In this document: positions 13,890 through 19,023 of the stretch, piece after piece | Layout: each line of letters starts with the position of its first letter | How positions within the stretch are numbered: position 1 is the stretch's first letter | Assembly (NCBI RefSeq): GCF_004804335.1 | Contig: NZ_SRXY01000008.1 | Span: forward strand, 124,001 to 188,000 | DNA from: Pacificoceanicola onchidii | Lineage (GTDB): Bacteria; Pseudomonadota; Alphaproteobacteria; Rhodobacterales; Rhodobacteraceae | Reading direction: 5' to 3' | Length of the DNA: 64,000 bases | Notes under the pieces: model-generated | What the model saw: the letters and a program-made list of their open reading frames with translations, nothing else | The model's database searches: none | Told to the model about the DNA's origin: nothing | Program-made: the position numbers and the translations under genes

Positions 13890-14390
13890 ATGCGCAAACT
13901 TCTACCCATCCTTCTGGCCCTGATCGGCACAGGTGCAGGCGTTGGCGCGGGGTTTTTCCTGATGCCTGCCCCGGAAGAACATGCCGAGGGTGAGATGGTC
14001 GAATGCATCACCCCCGAAGAATATGCCAAGGCAGAAAAGCCGCCCGAAGAAGAGCACGAACCGGAGACGCGGGAGTATGTCAAACTGAACAACCAGTTTG
14101 TCATCCCAATCATGTCCGAAGACCGGGTCAGCGCCCTTGTGGTAGCCGCCTTGAGTGTCGAGGTTACCACGGGGTCGACTGAAATCGTCTATACCCGAGA
14201 ACCGAAGCTGCGCGATGTATTCCTTCAGGTTTTATTCGATCACGCCAACATCGGCGGATTCAAGGGTAACTTCACCAACGGCGGCCGCATGGAAGACTTG
14301 CGCGGTGCCCTGCTCGAAGCCGCCCGCCCGGTGCTAGGCGATGCTGTGAGCGATGTCCTGATCACAGAAATCGCACGCCAGGATTCCTGA
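13890..14390 (+). CDS. fliL: Flagellar basal-body-associated protein FliL
   Basis: FliL is a single-pass inner-membrane protein that surrounds the stator and supports torque. The 166-aa protein has an N-terminal membrane segment (about residues 5-24), a Glu-rich linker (about 30-60) and a periplasmic stomatin-like domain including YVKLNNQFVIPI and LRDVFLQVLFDHA. It is the last gene of the flgB operon here. In related genomes fliF usually follows, but here the next gene is a convergent aminopropyltransferase 3 bp away, so the flagellar cluster breaks at this point. Confidence 0.9.
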   Translation: MRKLLPILLALIGTGAGVGAGFFLMPAPEEHAEGEMVECITPEEYAKAEKPPEEEHEPETREYVKLNNQFVIPIMSEDRVSALVVAALSVEVTTGSTEIVYTREPKLRDVFLQVLFDHANIGGFKGNFTNGGRMEDLRGALLEAARPVLGDAVSDVLITEIARQDS

Positions 14391-14392
14391 GA

Positions 14393-15925
14393 TCACTGGA
14401 ACCACGCGTCCCAGCCTTCGAGATAGTAGGTTACCAAGGCGTGGCTCTGGATGTTGTTGATCTCGACATCCACCTGCCCCGTATCCCGGCCAAAAACCTG
14501 CGCGCTGCGCCACGTTTCGGAACTCAGGTACAAAAGCCCGTCAGGCAGGTCAGGCATACGCGCTGCCAATGGCGAAAAACCGGCCATGACGAATCCCCAT
14601 TCGCCAAAACTCGGCACATGCACGTGGTAAGGTGTGATCGAAAGCCCCCCGCCGGGAGCATAGGGGTTCCCGGTCGCCTCGATTGTTTGAGCGACAGACC
14701 AGTACGCGTTGCGCGCAAACAGCGGTGAGCCCGCCTGCGTGACCATAAGGCCGGTCGCTGAAAGCCGCTGAACAAGCAGCCCATAGAATTCCCGAGAATA
14801 GAGCTTGGACAAAGCGATGTTCTTTGGATCGGGCAAGTCGAGAAGGATAACATCGAATGTCTCCTCTGACTCTTCAATAAACCGCCAAGCATCCTGGTTG
14901 ATGATGCGCACGCGCGGATCACGCAACGCACCGGAGTTCAACGCGGCAAGATCCGCCTGATCGCGAAACAGTTCGGTTACGCGCGGGTCCAGATCCACGA
15001 GGGTGACCCGATCAACCCCGTCATGTTTCAGTACCTCGCGAACCGCCATTCCGTCGCCGCCGCCAAGGATCAGAACAGACGCAACACGTGGTGCAAGGCC
15101 CATGGCGGGATGCACCAGCATTTCGTGGTAACGGTGCTCGTCCTTTGTGTCGAATTGGATGGAATAATCGAGGAACAGCCGAACACGATCCCGAAACCGG
15201 GTGACCGTGATCTGCTGGTACGGCGTAGCCTCCGACAGGACCACATCATCTTCGAAGAGTTGCGCTTCGGTGACGGATACCATGCGCTCACTCTGGAGAA
15301 GCGCCGTCAGCGTAGCCAGAAGGGCGACAGCCCAGACCACCCATTGCAACCGCGTGGCCACATCTCGAAACAGAAACAGCGACAGCCCCGCGACAACAAG
15401 ATTCAACGCGCCGAAGACAAGGCTCGCCGACATCAGACCAAGGTGCGGGATCACCAGAAGGGGAAACGCCAGAGAGGCGACAAGCGCGCCGACATAGTCC
15501 ACCGTCAGCACGTTTTCGAACCGGAAATCCGGTGCGCCAATGCTCTTCAAAACCCTTGCGATCAAGGGAATTTCCATGCCGGAAAGCACGCCCACGGCAA
15601 CCAGCATTCCATAGAGCGGCACCGCCACATCGCCAAGCCATGCGTAGGAAAAGAACAGCGCCGGCGCCATGAACCCGCCGATGATCCCGAGGCTGATCTG
15701 CGCCCAAGAAAACCCGCGCATGGCCTCTCCCACGAACCTCGATGCCCATGCGCCGATGCCCATCGAAAACAGGAAAACACCAATGACGATGCTGAATTGG
15801 CGCACGCTGTCGCCAAGTAGGTAGCTCGAAACTGTCGCCGCGATCAGTTCATAGATCAGCCCCGCGACTGCAATCAGGAAAGTCGCGGCGAGCAGCCATG
15901 TCTCGCGCAGACGCGCGTGTGTCAC
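14393..15925 (-). CDS. Membrane-anchored spermidine-synthase-like aminopropyltransferase
   Basis: A 510-aa fusion of an N-terminal membrane domain (about residues 10-215, roughly six to seven hydrophobic helices) and a C-terminal spermidine-synthase domain (about 225-500). Catalytic-fold motifs are visible: DEHRYHEMLVHPAM (the Tyr-His gate region), LILGGGDGMAVREVLKH (nucleotide-binding loop), LVDLDPRVTELF and LLDLPDPKN with the Asp-x-x-Asp-Pro arrangement that carries the catalytic Asp. It is therefore probably an active aminopropyl transferase using decarboxylated SAM, acting at the membrane on an unknown amine. No SAM decarboxylase gene lies in the window. It is the last gene of a five-gene operon with DUF350 and DUF4178 proteins and starts 4 bp before the DUF350 stop. 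Confidence 0.85.
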   Translation of the reverse strand: MTHARLRETWLLAATFLIAVAGLIYELIAATVSSYLLGDSVRQFSIVIGVFLFSMGIGAWASRFVGEAMRGFSWAQISLGIIGGFMAPALFFSYAWLGDVAVPLYGMLVAVGVLSGMEIPLIARVLKSIGAPDFRFENVLTVDYVGALVASLAFPLLVIPHLGLMSASLVFGALNLVVAGLSLFLFRDVATRLQWVVWAVALLATLTALLQSERMVSVTEAQLFEDDVVLSEATPYQQITVTRFRDRVRLFLDYSIQFDTKDEHRYHEMLVHPAMGLAPRVASVLILGGGDGMAVREVLKHDGVDRVTLVDLDPRVTELFRDQADLAALNSGALRDPRVRIINQDAWRFIEESEETFDVILLDLPDPKNIALSKLYSREFYGLLVQRLSATGLMVTQAGSPLFARNAYWSVAQTIEATGNPYAPGGGLSITPYHVHVPSFGEWGFVMAGFSPLAARMPDLPDGLLYLSSETWRSAQVFGRDTGQVDVEINNIQSHALVTYYLEGWDAWFQ

Positions 15926-16146
15926 GACAGGATCACGGCCGCGATAATGATCGAAAGCGCGACGAAGACTGAGCCAATCAGGATGGCGAGCGACGTGTTC
16001 TGGTCTTCTTCAATTTCCTTGATCACCGAAAACGGCGTCATGATGTTGATGATCCACCAGCAGAAGGCCATCAGAACAACGCCCAAGACCGTGAAAAAGA
16101 TGGTGCTGACGACCTCCGCCAGCTGAATTGCGGAAAACAGATCCAT
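15922..16146 (-). CDS. DUF350-family small membrane protein
   Basis: A 74-aa protein made of two hydrophobic helices (about residues 8-36 and 50-73) joined by a charged turn with SVIKEIEEDQNTSLAILIG, a pattern typical of one DUF350 repeat unit. Many DUF350 proteins have two such units; this one has one and would need to dimerise. It overlaps the aminopropyltransferase start by 4 bp and follows the 54-aa gene by 12 bp. Function is unknown. To my knowledge DUF350 proteins (such as E. coli YjfL) recur beside polyamine or glutathionylspermidine synthase-type genes, which fits here. Confidence 0.8.
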   Translation of the reverse strand: MDLFSAIQLAEVVSTIFFTVLGVVLMAFCWWIINIMTPFSVIKEIEEDQNTSLAILIGSVFVALSIIIAAVILS

Positions 16147-16158
16147 AAGATCCCCCTG

Positions 16159-16323
16159 TTATTTTACCCTGCCGACGACGCCGATGACGTTACCGCCCGA
16201 GCCTCGCCTGACGGATTGATCCAAGTCCGAACTTTCCCCGCCGGCGCCGTAGTATGAGACATAGCTCGTGCCTGCGACGGCGAGCGTTGTGAAGGTGACA
16301 AAAGCCATTCGAAAGAGGTTCAT
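16159..16323 (-). CDS. Small exported or membrane protein of the DUF4178/DUF350 operon
   Basis: A 54-codon frame too short for usual gene callers. The ATG (16323-16321) shares one base with the stop of the upstream DUF4178 gene (TGATG), and the TAA is at 16161-16159. The protein begins MNLFRMAFVTFTTLAVAGTS, which looks like a signal peptide or membrane anchor. It continues with YVSYYGAGGESSDLD and ends in a Gly/Val-rich basic tail (SGGNVIGVVGRVK). The tight coupling on both sides is the main evidence that it is real. I do not recognise a family. It may be the counterpart of small proteins seen in similar operons elsewhere. Confidence 0.65.
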   Translation of the reverse strand: MNLFRMAFVTFTTLAVAGTSYVSYYGAGGESSDLDQSVRRGSGGNVIGVVGRVK

Positions 16324-17612
16324 CAGTCATCACTCCAATCGCTGTGGCTCCACCGGCGCGCGCGGTGCATGAATTTCTTGCCATAGGTCACGGCGGACAG
16401 AATGCCGAACCCGAACGCCAATAGCAGCAGCCACATACCGGAGGATTGCCCCTCGCGGGCGGACACCGTGACGGCGGTTGCGTTTCTGCCATTGCCCCAG
16501 ATCCCGGCTTCGGGCTGGTCTATGGTCAGCGTGTAAGTCCCCGGCGCAGGCGGGCGGAACGTCAGGCTGGACGAGCGATTGCCCTCACTCCAGGACTCAC
16601 CATCCTGCCGGCCATAGTAATACTCGACGGTACGGCCCGCTTCGAACACCGGCACATCTTCGGGATCGGTCAACTCCATTTCGAAGTAGGACCAGGCGTT
16701 GGAGACGTTGGCGCTGATCTTGATCGTAGCGAGCTTGTCCGTATCCCGCAGATCAAAGGTCACATCGCGCGGCAACGCCCGCAACCCTATTTCAGTCGGG
16801 GCAAGCACCTGGTATCCGGGCAGAGAGATGAAGGTGATCGCAATAATGAGGCAGCAGGCCGCCGCAACACCGGAGACAAAGGCAACGAACCCCGTGTTTT
16901 CCCCCGCCTTGTAGGGCTGCAGCGCGTGTACCCCATGCGCCTTGAGATCACCGGATTTGAGGCCAAAACTCTTTTTGACCTCCGCCTGTGGCAGATACTC
17001 GGACTTGTAGATCTCCCGCTCCGTCCCGGTCTCGGAGAAATCCAGCATCCCCGAAAGGCACATCGCAGAAATGGTGGTTGTCACGTCGCCCACGGTCGGA
17101 GACCAGGTGAACTCGCCTTCCACAAAGGTCAGGCGGCTCTTCGTGGTTTGCAGGTATTTGTAGCTTTCACCGTTGTAACTGGCCGTCGGCGCACTTTCAG
17201 CGTTTTCGACCCAGTATTCGCTCATCCAGAGCCCCTGCGGCGTGCCGCGCAGACGCCGCGAATAGACCAGATGACCATCCTCGACGGTCAGCCAGGCATA
17301 GCCATGGGTTTCGGAGAAAAGCTGATGTTCGACCCATTCCCAGGTCTTGCCGCCGTAATCCTCGCGGTGGCCAAGCGTGCCGATGATCGTCCACTCGATC
17401 CCCTTGATCACGCCTTTCATGCCAAGCGTGAACGGGGTGTTTGGGCGCGGCATGTCAGAGAATTGCCGCAGCGCGCGATAGCCGTGCAGCGCGTCAAGCT
17501 CCGTCCCGCAATAGCCGCAGACATGCGTTGTCACCCGCCCGCCGCCGAGAATGTCGAGCCCCGCGCCACAGGCTGTGCAGTTGATCGCCTCAAGCGTCGC
17601 CGCGCGGGTCAT
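16323..17612 (-). CDS. DUF4178 protein with zinc ribbon and membrane segments
   Basis: A 429-aa multidomain protein. The N-terminal zinc ribbon has C12-x2-C15 and C32-x2-C35. The DUF4178 beta-rich domain follows (about residues 58-235, starting FTLGMKGVIKGIEWTIIG). A hydrophobic helix spans about 250-272. A beta-sandwich-like region (about 290-385) contains FRPPAPGTYTLTIDQPE. A second hydrophobic helix spans about 396-413, with a short basic tail after it. The layout suggests a cytoplasmic sensor or scaffold part and an extracytoplasmic beta domain. It overlaps the upstream DUF4178 gene by 4 bp. Molecular function is unknown. Confidence 0.8.
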   Translation of the reverse strand: MTRAATLEAINCTACGAGLDILGGGRVTTHVCGYCGTELDALHGYRALRQFSDMPRPNTPFTLGMKGVIKGIEWTIIGTLGHREDYGGKTWEWVEHQLFSETHGYAWLTVEDGHLVYSRRLRGTPQGLWMSEYWVENAESAPTASYNGESYKYLQTTKSRLTFVEGEFTWSPTVGDVTTTISAMCLSGMLDFSETGTEREIYKSEYLPQAEVKKSFGLKSGDLKAHGVHALQPYKAGENTGFVAFVSGVAAACCLIIAITFISLPGYQVLAPTEIGLRALPRDVTFDLRDTDKLATIKISANVSNAWSYFEMELTDPEDVPVFEAGRTVEYYYGRQDGESWSEGNRSSSLTFRPPAPGTYTLTIDQPEAGIWGNGRNATAVTVSAREGQSSGMWLLLLAFGFGILSAVTYGKKFMHRARRWSHSDWSDD

Positions 17613-18223
17613 GGCAGCGCCTCCACGCGGATATCAAACGGGTCGTGCCAGAAGCCCAGGTACCAGGATTTTCCGCCCTGCCAGAACTCGCCGGACATCA
17701 GCGCGCCGTTCTCCGATTGCAGGTTCAAAAAGCGATAGGTCTCCCCCACTGTCAACTGCTCGCCGAAAGAGCCGCGCAGGGCGACGCACTCCGCCTTGTC
17801 GGCTTCGGCCACACGCCAGGTCTCGTCGCGATGCTCCCAGGCCATGCCAACACCGGCTCCGGCGGGAATATCCGGCCACATCTCCTGGCGGATCGGGTAC
17901 TGCAGGACAACATCGCCTTCATCGACCGAAACCCAGACGCCGCGCTGGTCTTCGTCGAGGCCCCAGAATTCATCCCACCAGCCGCGCCCATAAGAATAGC
18001 GCGCATGGCCCATGATCTGCACGGAGTTGCCACCGAAATGCACGGTGTCGCCGATACCGAAAAGCGAAGGCCCGTCATGCATCTCTCCGGACTGACCGGC
18101 GTTACGCAGTTGCGCGCCATCAAGGTAAAGCGTGGTGCTGCAGGACGGGCAGGTGACCATGGTCACATAAGAAATCTGCTCCGGAACCGCATCGCCGCAA
18201 TTGGGACAAGTCAAATCGGACAT
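17609..18223 (-). CDS. DUF4178 protein with N-terminal zinc ribbon, soluble
   Basis: A 204-aa protein, first gene of the five-gene operon. Its zinc ribbon has C6-x2-C9 and C25-x2-C28. The DUF4178 domain follows, containing FGIGDTVHFGGNSVQIMG (about residues 55-72), the aromatic-rich YGRGWWDEFWGL and FWQGGKSWYLGF near the end. No membrane segment is seen, unlike the second DUF4178 protein, so the pair may form a soluble/membrane partnership. The 56-bp gap upstream, before paaX, must hold the operon promoter. Confidence 0.8.
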   Translation of the reverse strand: MSDLTCPNCGDAVPEQISYVTMVTCPSCSTTLYLDGAQLRNAGQSGEMHDGPSLFGIGDTVHFGGNSVQIMGHARYSYGRGWWDEFWGLDEDQRGVWVSVDEGDVVLQYPIRQEMWPDIPAGAGVGMAWEHRDETWRVAEADKAECVALRGSFGEQLTVGETYRFLNLQSENGALMSGEFWQGGKSWYLGFWHDPFDIRVEALP

Positions 18224-18279
18224 GCCGCGAAAATGCTCTTATACCGGATGCAATTGCAACGGGAAATTGCAGGTAATCT

Positions 18280-19023
18280 TCACAGGGAGTCCAATGCCGC
18301 GTGGACCGTGCGCCGCGTCACCGCCCCCTCCCAGTCTTCGCCAAGCAAGGCGTCCGCGAGCGGCGACTGCCGCAGCACAAGACGCCGCCAGTGATGCAGG
18401 ATCAAAAGCCGCAACGCCGCGCGCTTTTCGGGATCATCCGGGCAGCGCTCCATGCCTTCAAGGGTCGCTTGCGTCAGCGCCTTGCAGGCCGCGCGATGCG
18501 CCGTGGACGCGATGCTTTGGCACACCCAATCGGGCAACGTCCCGGCAAGCGGCGTCGTCAAATACGCCCCCTCTGGCACCGCCCCGGAAATAAGCCCGCT
18601 TCGGCTGGTCAGCTGAACGGACCGGCCCGGCGGCAGGCTTTGCGCCAGCGGTGCTGCCAAATCCGGGGGCGATACAACCAGAGACACAGGGCCGATCTCG
18701 GGCGGTTGCACAGAGTAGATCAGCGGACGCACAGCTTCCGTTTCCCGGCGCGCTGAGGCGGTCAGAAAATGCACGGAACTTCGCCCGTCCCGGCGGCTTT
18801 CGATCCAGCCATCCTTCTTGAGCCGGTGCACCGCAACCCGAAGCGCCTGATCGGTGATGCCAATGGCCCCAACCCGCGCCGCCAGTTCCTTTCCGCCGAT
18901 CCCCTGCCCCGCGCCGCGCAGTGTGTCGCCCATGATCGTCACAATCACAGACCACGTCCGAAGCGGGCCCAGACCTTCAAAAAGGGCAATCTCTTCAGCA
19001 ATCTGCGGCATAGGCTGAGGCAT
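18280..19023 (-). CDS. paaX: PaaX-family repressor of phenylacetate genes
   Basis: PaaX is the phenylacetyl-CoA-responsive GntR-like repressor of paa operons. The 247-aa protein opens with a winged-helix region (about residues 20-90: SVIVTIMGDTLR, ITDQALRVAVHRLKKDGWIESRRDGRSS with the wing). The PaaX central and C-terminal parts follow, ending in the helical region with LLILHHWRRLVLR. It lies 30 bp downstream of paaZ on the same strand and is probably co-transcribed with it. A second, TetR-type regulator is encoded at 23675. Confidence 0.9.
   Translation of the reverse strand: MPQPMPQIAEEIALFEGLGPLRTWSVIVTIMGDTLRGAGQGIGGKELAARVGAIGITDQALRVAVHRLKKDGWIESRRDGRSSVHFLTASARRETEAVRPLIYSVQPPEIGPVSLVVSPPDLAAPLAQSLPPGRSVQLTSRSGLISGAVPEGAYLTTPLAGTLPDWVCQSIASTAHRAACKALTQATLEGMERCPDDPEKRAALRLLILHHWRRLVLRQSPLADALLGEDWEGAVTRRTVHAALDSL

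Follow-up and report, generated by a model that had tools for sequence, protein, structure and literature searches.

A lysine-ended small protein as candidate acceptor of a predicted membrane-bound aminopropyltransferase in Pacificoceanicola onchidii

The stretch analysed here (the window) comprises 64,000 nucleotides of the genome of Pacificoceanicola onchidii (contig NZ_SRXY01000008.1, positions 124,001 to 188,000). Between positions 14393 and 18223, the window carries a five-gene operon on the minus strand, encoding a probable membrane-bound aminopropyltransferase, its partner proteins and a 54-aa protein that ends in lysine and is proposed here as the acceptor. An earlier sequence-only reading had described five minus-strand genes with short overlaps and gaps, and the coordinates and junctions of these open reading frames (ORFs) were confirmed, the junctions being, in order, a 4-bp overlap, a 1-bp overlap, a 12-bp gap and a 4-bp overlap. 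Below, MSE denotes the 510-aa fusion protein, D4178S the 204-aa protein and D4178L the 429-aa protein; L numbers are loci and G numbers are genomes.

17609-18223, minus strand: D4178S, first gene of the operon, 204 aa, zinc ribbon plus DUF4178 (Pfam DUF4178, E 6.2e-14)
16323-17612, minus strand: D4178L, 429 aa, with a zinc ribbon, a beta-rich DUF4178-like part, a first transmembrane helix (TM1), a beta-sandwich and a second transmembrane helix (TM2) (AlphaFold2 (AF2) model)
16159-16323, minus strand: lysine-tail protein, 54 aa, proposed acceptor, one N-terminal hydrophobic helix and a hydrophilic tail ending GRVK
16162-16164, minus strand: AAA codon of the C-terminal lysine in the lysine-tail gene (sequence)
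15922-16146, minus strand: DUF350 protein, 74 aa, two hydrophobic segments with the acidic stretch EIEEDQN between them (Pfam, E 1.5e-11)
14393-15925, minus strand: MSE, membrane domain plus aminopropyltransferase domain, 510 aa, GTG start (NCBIfam NF002956; AF2 model)
15296-15925, minus strand: membrane domain of MSE, residues 1-210, read as seven TM helices of which the third is kinked, N-terminus predicted cytoplasmic
14396-15247, minus strand: aminopropyltransferase domain of MSE, residues 227-510, predicted extracytoplasmic (Pfam; PDB fold matches)

Based on its fold and active-site residues, MSE is probably a membrane-bound aminopropyltransferase. It scores 623.8 bits against NCBIfam NF002956 (PRK03612; cut-off 472) and 36.8 bits against NF037959 (fused MFS/spermidine synthase, MFS_SpdSyn), which is below the cut-off of 40. 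Pfam Spermine_synth matches MSE above its curated cut-off (E 1.6e-35), the sole match to this family in the genome. With the GGGDG nucleotide loop and the D-L-P-D-P motif both intact, the earlier description of a membrane domain fused to a spermidine-synthase domain with its catalytic Asp and nucleotide loop in place was borne out. An AF2 model (81 sequences, mean pLDDT 92.4) shows TM helices followed by a spermidine-synthase fold; the arrangement of the domains is uncertain given its pTM of 0.64. The best 50 PDB matches to the model are all aminopropyltransferases or spermidine synthases. Of the 17 positions tallied in the active-site region, all but two are invariant in the 81 MSE sequences (Q257, Y266, H267, G288-D291, D313, D345, D363, P365, D366, P367, Q397 and W443), the other two being D311 (D in 65, E in 16) and L364 (F in 48, L in 33). 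E118, R124, D143 and N175 of the membrane domain are likewise invariant.

The lysine-tail protein, which the sequence-only reading passed over, is the most telling part of the operon. It falls under every Pfam cut-off, the best score being 13.6 bits for YdgV (cut-off 27), and no NCBIfam family is reached either. For comparison, a scan of species genomes gave at least 586 confirmed MSE relatives, the best 80 of which, plus nine from a family sample of 120 genomes, form a set of 89 loci (L037-L125). As labelled, these loci span Alpha-, Beta- and Gammaproteobacteria, Campylobacterota, Acidobacteriota, Bacteroidota, Gemmatimonadota and others, so the association is not limited to a few related strains. 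Across loci, the product of the gene that lies between D4178L and DUF350 or MSE has one hydrophobic helix, then a tail that is often Gly/Ser-rich, and a final lysine. Seven of these small-protein sequences share little and end in GRVK, GRIK or GGVK. Only the last position of the tail is invariant, and the one before it is H, G, V or I. A C-terminal lysine is present in all 73 of the 89 loci that hold D4178L, in a separate small gene in 58 and fused to D4178L in 15. The fused loci are mostly Burkholderiales as labelled, and their D4178L ends in a hydrophobic helix plus a tail such as GGGHK.

A fixed rule found 56 of the separate ORFs (47-83 aa) and the 15 fused ones; the two misses, L085 and L088, have the tail on reading. 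Applied to the 58 gaps, the rule gave one qualifying, Lys-ended ORF in 45, two or three ORFs of which one is Lys-ended in 11, and none in two. The same rule gave lysine endings in 0/48 ORFs downstream of other operon genes and in 1/42 on the opposite strand. Among the other operon proteins, a final lysine occurs in 6/296 (MSE 2/89, DUF350 0/71, D4178S 0/44, flavoprotein 2/37, SpeD 2/32 and SPFH 0/23), by which an operon-wide habit of such endings was rejected; D4178L was left out of this control, its 15/73 lysine endings being the fused tails. In the window itself, three of 42 non-overlapping ORFs of at least 200 aa end in lysine. Among the 56 separate genes that the rule picked up, the lysine codon is AAA in 40 and AAG in 16. 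Since lysine and stop codons are mixed, and lysine is kept in nine loci with no DUF350 in the retrieved stretch, retention of this codon for translational coupling to DUF350 is disfavoured.

Sixteen of the 89 loci lack D4178L. Four of them (L043, L044, L045 and L070) carry a Lys tail at the locus. Of the remaining 12, ten (all but L084 and L094) were searched genome-wide for DUF4178, which yielded nine Lys tails, next to or in a D4178L outside the retrieved stretch, and none for L064 (G418). In total, 86 of the 89 loci have a Lys tail. A prediction test on 16 genomes without D4178L seen near MSE at first found DUF4178 in 13, and a Lys tail in 12 of these 13; among these 12, DUF350 lies in the retrieved stretch in three and not there in nine. 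In ten genomes the tail gene lies outside the retrieved stretch around MSE or on the other strand. In a Pseudomonadota sample of 299 genomes, 31 encode MSE (threshold E <=1e-60), and 30 loci other than our own were read. The tail is found near MSE on the same strand in 24 of the 30 and elsewhere in three more, giving 27/30: it sits beside a D4178L about 1.5 kb off on the other strand in L137 and L138, and in a fused D4178L about 10 kb upstream in L132. For L143, L152 and L154, no tail gene was found at the locus and no DUF4178 in the genome.

The lysine also ends proteins of other architectures. In the variant of L043-L045 it ends a membrane protein of about 200 aa (3/3). In L151, L153 and L155-L160, from Pseudomonadota outside Alphaproteobacteria, it ends a protein of 311-576 aa beside a DUF350 protein of about 300 aa; six of these eight long proteins (L151, L156-L160) have a lipobox by eye, as does a plasmid-encoded protein of Alteromonas with the ending PSSGK. 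The lysine is present in each of the four bacterial plasmid loci that were read (Alteromonas, Burkholderia, Ensifer and Novosphingobium). Plasmids of Tritonibacter mobilis, a marine bacterium, also encode the fusion, at 67% identity. The candidates of about 200 aa and those of the Pseudomonadota sample were listed by their final lysine, so these counts are directed. The fused tails, the plasmid tails, those from the genome-wide DUF4178 search and part of those from the Pseudomonadota sample were read by eye. In L043-L045, a gene for a rhomboid protease fused to a GNAT domain (L043:7417-8730, minus strand; L044:2613-3926, plus strand; L045:3196-4479, plus strand; Pfam run on L045 only) lies between SpeD and the tail protein in 3/3 loci, and no DUF350 or DUF4178 was found in the locus.

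A natural control is offered by MSE-like proteins of haloarchaea, which have lost D262, E263, D366, P367 and Q397 and thus have a broken acceptor site (3/3). At these loci (L129, L187 and L188, on plasmids), the neighbouring lipoprotein-like proteins end in KVSPRI and not in lysine (3/3). The three probably represent one evolutionary event. In L129 and L187 a DUF2617 gene follows.

The donor expected for such an enzyme is decarboxylated S-adenosylmethionine (dcSAM). The statement that no S-adenosylmethionine decarboxylase (AdoMetDC) is nearby holds for the 64-kb window, where no SpeD was found, and not beyond it: a genome search identified a single SpeD on contig C15 (L005:8529-8969, minus strand; NCBIfam SAM_DCase_Bsu, 127.9 bits, cut-off 75.65), and SpeD lies at the fusion locus in six of the ten fusion genomes of the family sample (adjoining in L037, L038 and L041, two genes upstream in L043-L045). 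An enzyme without a donor was thus rejected as an explanation. SpeD is on a different contig from the fusion in our own genome, G054 and G084, and the SpeD-next-to-SpeE order typical of spermidine operons is absent here. Our SpeD gene stands alone; judged by eye, its neighbours are a thioesterase-like gene and one for an aminotransferase-type regulator. The full fusion occurs in ten family-sample genomes, our own included; weak long matches in G009 and G037 (E 3e-12, frames >800 aa), neither of which has SpeD, were not counted. SpeD is present in 28 of the 120 genomes, among them all ten with the fusion (Fisher test, 1e-7). The 30 other MSE genomes of the Pseudomonadota sample have SpeD in 24 cases (G126 and G171 by partial matches), and three of the six without it have a class 2 AdoMetDC. 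Our genome further encodes homologues of CASDC (388.1 bits against the nspC model, cut-off 409.05) and, directly after it, of CASDH (443.2 bits against the carboxynorspermidine synthase model, cut-off 800; E 1e-132). With these two genes side by side, spermidine need not come from MSE.

The five-gene order is kept in seven of the ten fusion genomes, i.e. in our own and in six of the nine others, and is therefore not due to chance; D4178S is the first gene in L037-L042 too. Profile counts over the 89 loci gave D4178L 73, DUF350 72, D4178S 44, flavoprotein 43, SpeD 36 and SPFH 24, next to MSE 89 by selection; a first clustering had given lower counts for some families. All seven families occur together in nine loci, and the fullest order (L076, L089, L106 and L122) is SPFH, SpeD, D4178S, D4178L, small gene, DUF350, MSE and flavoprotein. 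L104, a metagenome-assembled contig labelled Klebsiella pneumoniae, has SpeD, D4178L, small Lys-tail gene, MSE and flavoprotein in the order of L113 (Chitinophagaceae), and its label may be wrong.

Two zinc-ribbon DUF4178 proteins had been proposed for the operon. This was confirmed for D4178S (PF13785, 52.8 bits, gathering cut-off 25). D4178L has no Pfam match of its own to this family at E <=1, but it has the CxxC...CxxC pattern, and its counterpart in L069 does match (E 2.5e-12, 47.5 bits). The one-unit DUF350 protein stood as described (PF03994, 44.9 bits, gathering cut-off 26). In the AF2 model of D4178L (mean pLDDT 93.3, pTM 0.79), the beta-sandwich at residues 265-390 has GOLD and collagen-binding domains among its best matches (Z up to 9.9) and filled the match list, leaving the DUF4178 part barely probed. 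With Foldseek, the whole model reached a TM-score of at most 0.19 of the query among the 50 matches listed. Because whole-model scores are low and the beta-sandwich alone filled the list, no function is read from this fold. DUF4178, a candidate sensor or scaffold in the sequence-only reading, does go with the enzyme: in the Pseudomonadota sample it occurs in 20 of the 299 genomes (19 over the cut-off), all of them within the 31 MSE genomes (Fisher test, 1e-23); the other 11 MSE genomes show none. A flavin amine-oxidase-like gene follows MSE in many lineages (e.g., L101:3458-5026 and L121:8472-10082), with a twin-arginine-like N-terminus by eye. To PDB sequences it shows only weak matches, among them a putative aminooxidase (E 0.003) and a spermine oxidase (E 0.009). 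The L121 protein exceeds the cut-off of Pfam Amino_oxidase, which is not listed for L101, and neither protein reaches an NCBIfam cut-off.

As for topology, Lys plus Arg average 8.1 in the N-terminus and loops 2-3, 4-5 and 6-7 of MSE (48 reference positions) vs 1.6 in loops 1-2, 3-4 and 5-6 (29 positions), and the positive-inside direction is the same in 81/81 sequences, by count and by density. Together with the seven predicted TM helices, this places the aminopropyltransferase domain outside the cytoplasm, where aminopropyl transfer would then probably occur. The Lys tails carried by lipoproteins are likewise predicted to lie outside, and should the zinc-ribbon end of D4178L lie in the cytoplasm, a fused tail that follows one TM helix would be outside as well.

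Based on these results, it is proposed that MSE aminopropylates the lysine at the C-terminus of the membrane-anchored tail protein encoded in the same operon, a proposal to which we give an even chance of being correct. As the best reading, the data suggest a hypusine-like protein modification with this lysine as the presumed acceptor. SpeD, recognised by homology and encoded elsewhere in the genome, would make dcSAM, from which MSE would move the 3-aminopropyl group to the side chain of the lysine, presumably yielding N-epsilon-(3-aminopropyl)lysine, a shorter relative of deoxyhypusine. The amine of a lysine side chain is carried on a four-carbon chain, as in putrescine, so that a putrescine-type pocket could accept lysine with little change. 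More speculatively, dcSAM may be brought across by the membrane domain, perhaps via the invariant E118, D143 and N175; DUF350 and the two DUF4178 proteins might complete the complex and report the state of the membrane, and the flavin amine-oxidase-like protein could, in many lineages, process the new amine. The combined picture, i.e. a widespread class of modification with a transmembrane aminopropyltransferase, a dcSAM donor carried across, an extracytoplasmic C-terminal lysine on a membrane- or lipid-anchored tail and, in many lineages, an exported amine oxidase, is tentative and would sooner fail than hold in all its parts.

A first alternative is that MSE acts on a small molecule or lipid, such as a non-putrescine polyamine or an amino lipid, with the lysine tail docking or regulating, e.g., by occupying the cation site. 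The fold of MSE is indeed that of small-molecule aminopropyltransferases, the ten genomes with a displaced or opposite-strand tail gene are what a regulator could show, and links between polyamines and the membrane are proposed by Ravi 2024 (PMC11237479). However, docking does not obviously need a strict C-terminal lysine across architectures while the rest of the tail varies, and, according to a passage in PMC12803844, bacterial membrane-aminopropyltransferase (APT) fusions are not involved in spermidine or spermine synthesis; we regard this alternative as unlikely. It is more doubtful still that the lysine is a processing, sorting or attachment signal (a peptidase site, a link to an envelope polymer, or a substrate of the rhomboid or oxidase) without any aminopropyl transfer. 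In its favour, the tails are predicted to be membrane- or lipid-anchored, a rhomboid-GNAT gene lies beside the tail gene in the 3/3 loci of one variant and a flavin amine-oxidase-like gene occurs in 43/89 loci. Yet besides MSE, itself the selection criterion, no catalytic family is common enough to be the partner (flavoprotein 43/89, SpeD 36/89, rhomboid-GNAT in one variant), and it is the haloarchaeal loci with a broken MSE-like site that are without the lysine. That MSE is an ordinary spermidine synthase, fused to a membrane domain by happenstance, is very improbable: SpeE-type proteins are its best folds, its NCBI family is named polyamine aminopropyltransferase, SpeD is in the genome and five of the ten family-sample fusion genomes have no CASDC-like gene, but G025 has a stand-alone SpeE besides the fusion, and the idea was set aside on the CASDC- and CASDH-like genes of our own genome and the published negative for spermidine and spermine synthesis by membrane-APT fusions as given in PMC12803844, the proteins tested there being perhaps not exactly of this subfamily. 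The earlier proposal of a membrane-bound aminopropyltransferase system is supported, with an acceptor that is probably not putrescine.

Several points weigh against modification of the tail lysine by MSE. To our knowledge, no route of dcSAM to the periplasm has been described, and the tail lysine might instead have a role in docking or sorting. In G418 (L064), G280, G176 and G171, no tail was found. The spermidine route invoked above has its own gaps: the CASDC- and CASDH-like genes of our genome both score below the curated cut-offs, and a CASDC-like gene is present in only 5/10 fusion genomes of the family sample. On the donor side, SpeD of G025 sits by the stand-alone SpeE and not by the fusion, and neither class of AdoMetDC was found in G156, G176 and G285 (71% complete) of the 30 genomes; two of these, G156 (L153) and G285 (L146), do have a Lys tail. 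The p-values are not strict, because the loci are related by descent and were picked by MSE. With regard to topology, TM2 of MSE is weakly hydrophobic and its weakest helix (19-residue mean hydrophobicity >=1.6 in 25/81 sequences, compared to 63/81 for TM7), and a helix count off by one would put the catalytic domain inside. Moreover, the C-terminal tail of the small protein is more positive than its N-terminus in 37/54 cases and equal in eight, so that the same rule, by itself, favours a cytoplasmic tail.

Upstream of the operon, a PaaX-like regulator gene lies on the same strand (18280-19023), separated from it by 56 bp (18224-18279). Because of this spacing, and with no terminator-like site between them, the regulator gene and the operon may be co-transcribed; terminator-like sites were slightly more frequent than chance (eight vs 4.5 expected), and promoter-like sites were not above chance (one found vs 1.4 expected). 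From downstream, a fliL-like gene converges on the operon and ends at 14390.

The acceptor of the membrane fusions has reportedly been an open question since at least 2019. With a dedicated partner that ends in a conserved lysine, this question of the substrate comes down to one test. If the proposal is true, it would represent a hypusine-like protein modification built on dcSAM and an aminopropyltransferase working outside the cytoplasm, and it would give SpeD a polyamine-independent purpose, explaining AdoMetDC genes that serve no spermidine synthesis. No paper came up in an exact-phrase literature search on the aminopropylation of proteins or lysine, and nothing on a C-terminal lysine in these operons was among the top-ranked matches of broader searches.

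A close parallel is the synthesis of deoxyhypusine on eIF5A, in which the side chain of a lysine in a dedicated protein likewise receives a polyamine-type group. In that case an aminobutyl group from spermidine goes to an internal lysine, in a cytosolic reaction; here, the donor would be dcSAM, the group aminopropyl, the lysine C-terminal and the reaction probably extracytoplasmic. Li 2019 is said to have described membrane protein-spermidine synthase fusions with AdoMetDC and DUF350, and to have inferred a non-polyamine acceptor without identifying it; these share SpeD and the membrane-fused spermidine synthase-like domain with the present system, and a specific candidate for the acceptor is named only here. 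According to the passage in PMC12803844, which cites Li 2019 (Biochem J 476:2579), experiments on bacterial homologues of a fungal membrane-APT fusion showed that these have no part in spermidine or spermine synthesis, and the same passage thereby casts doubt, for membrane fusions, on the polyamine synthesis that the family name of NF002956 implies.

The sequence-only reading had regarded the operon as the best candidate for an undescribed system. This does not hold, as the operon class is already listed by Ravi 2024 (PMC11237479). The PSP-linked operons of that paper combine a 7TM-spermidine synthase fusion with DUF350, DUF4178 and a lipoprotein, and the function suggested for them is the monitoring of polyamines or of aminopropylation of other substrates; its main text never uses the word lysine. 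As described there, these operons have the same enzyme architecture and the same DUF350 and DUF4178 partners as the window operon, which differs in having one 74-aa DUF350 unit instead of 8TM and a 54-aa TM protein in place of the lipoprotein. Also unlike those operons, the five genes include no PspA-CesT/Tir dyad by Pfam, the rest of the genome not having been searched for PspA. The long Lys-ended proteins of L151, L153 and L155-L160, which precede the DUF350 protein of about 300 aa, would correspond to the 'Ctha_1186' lipoproteins of Ravi 2024. The operon is a compact alphaproteobacterial member of a published class without an explained purpose, and the new element is the lysine-tail protein, which offers a specific candidate acceptor.

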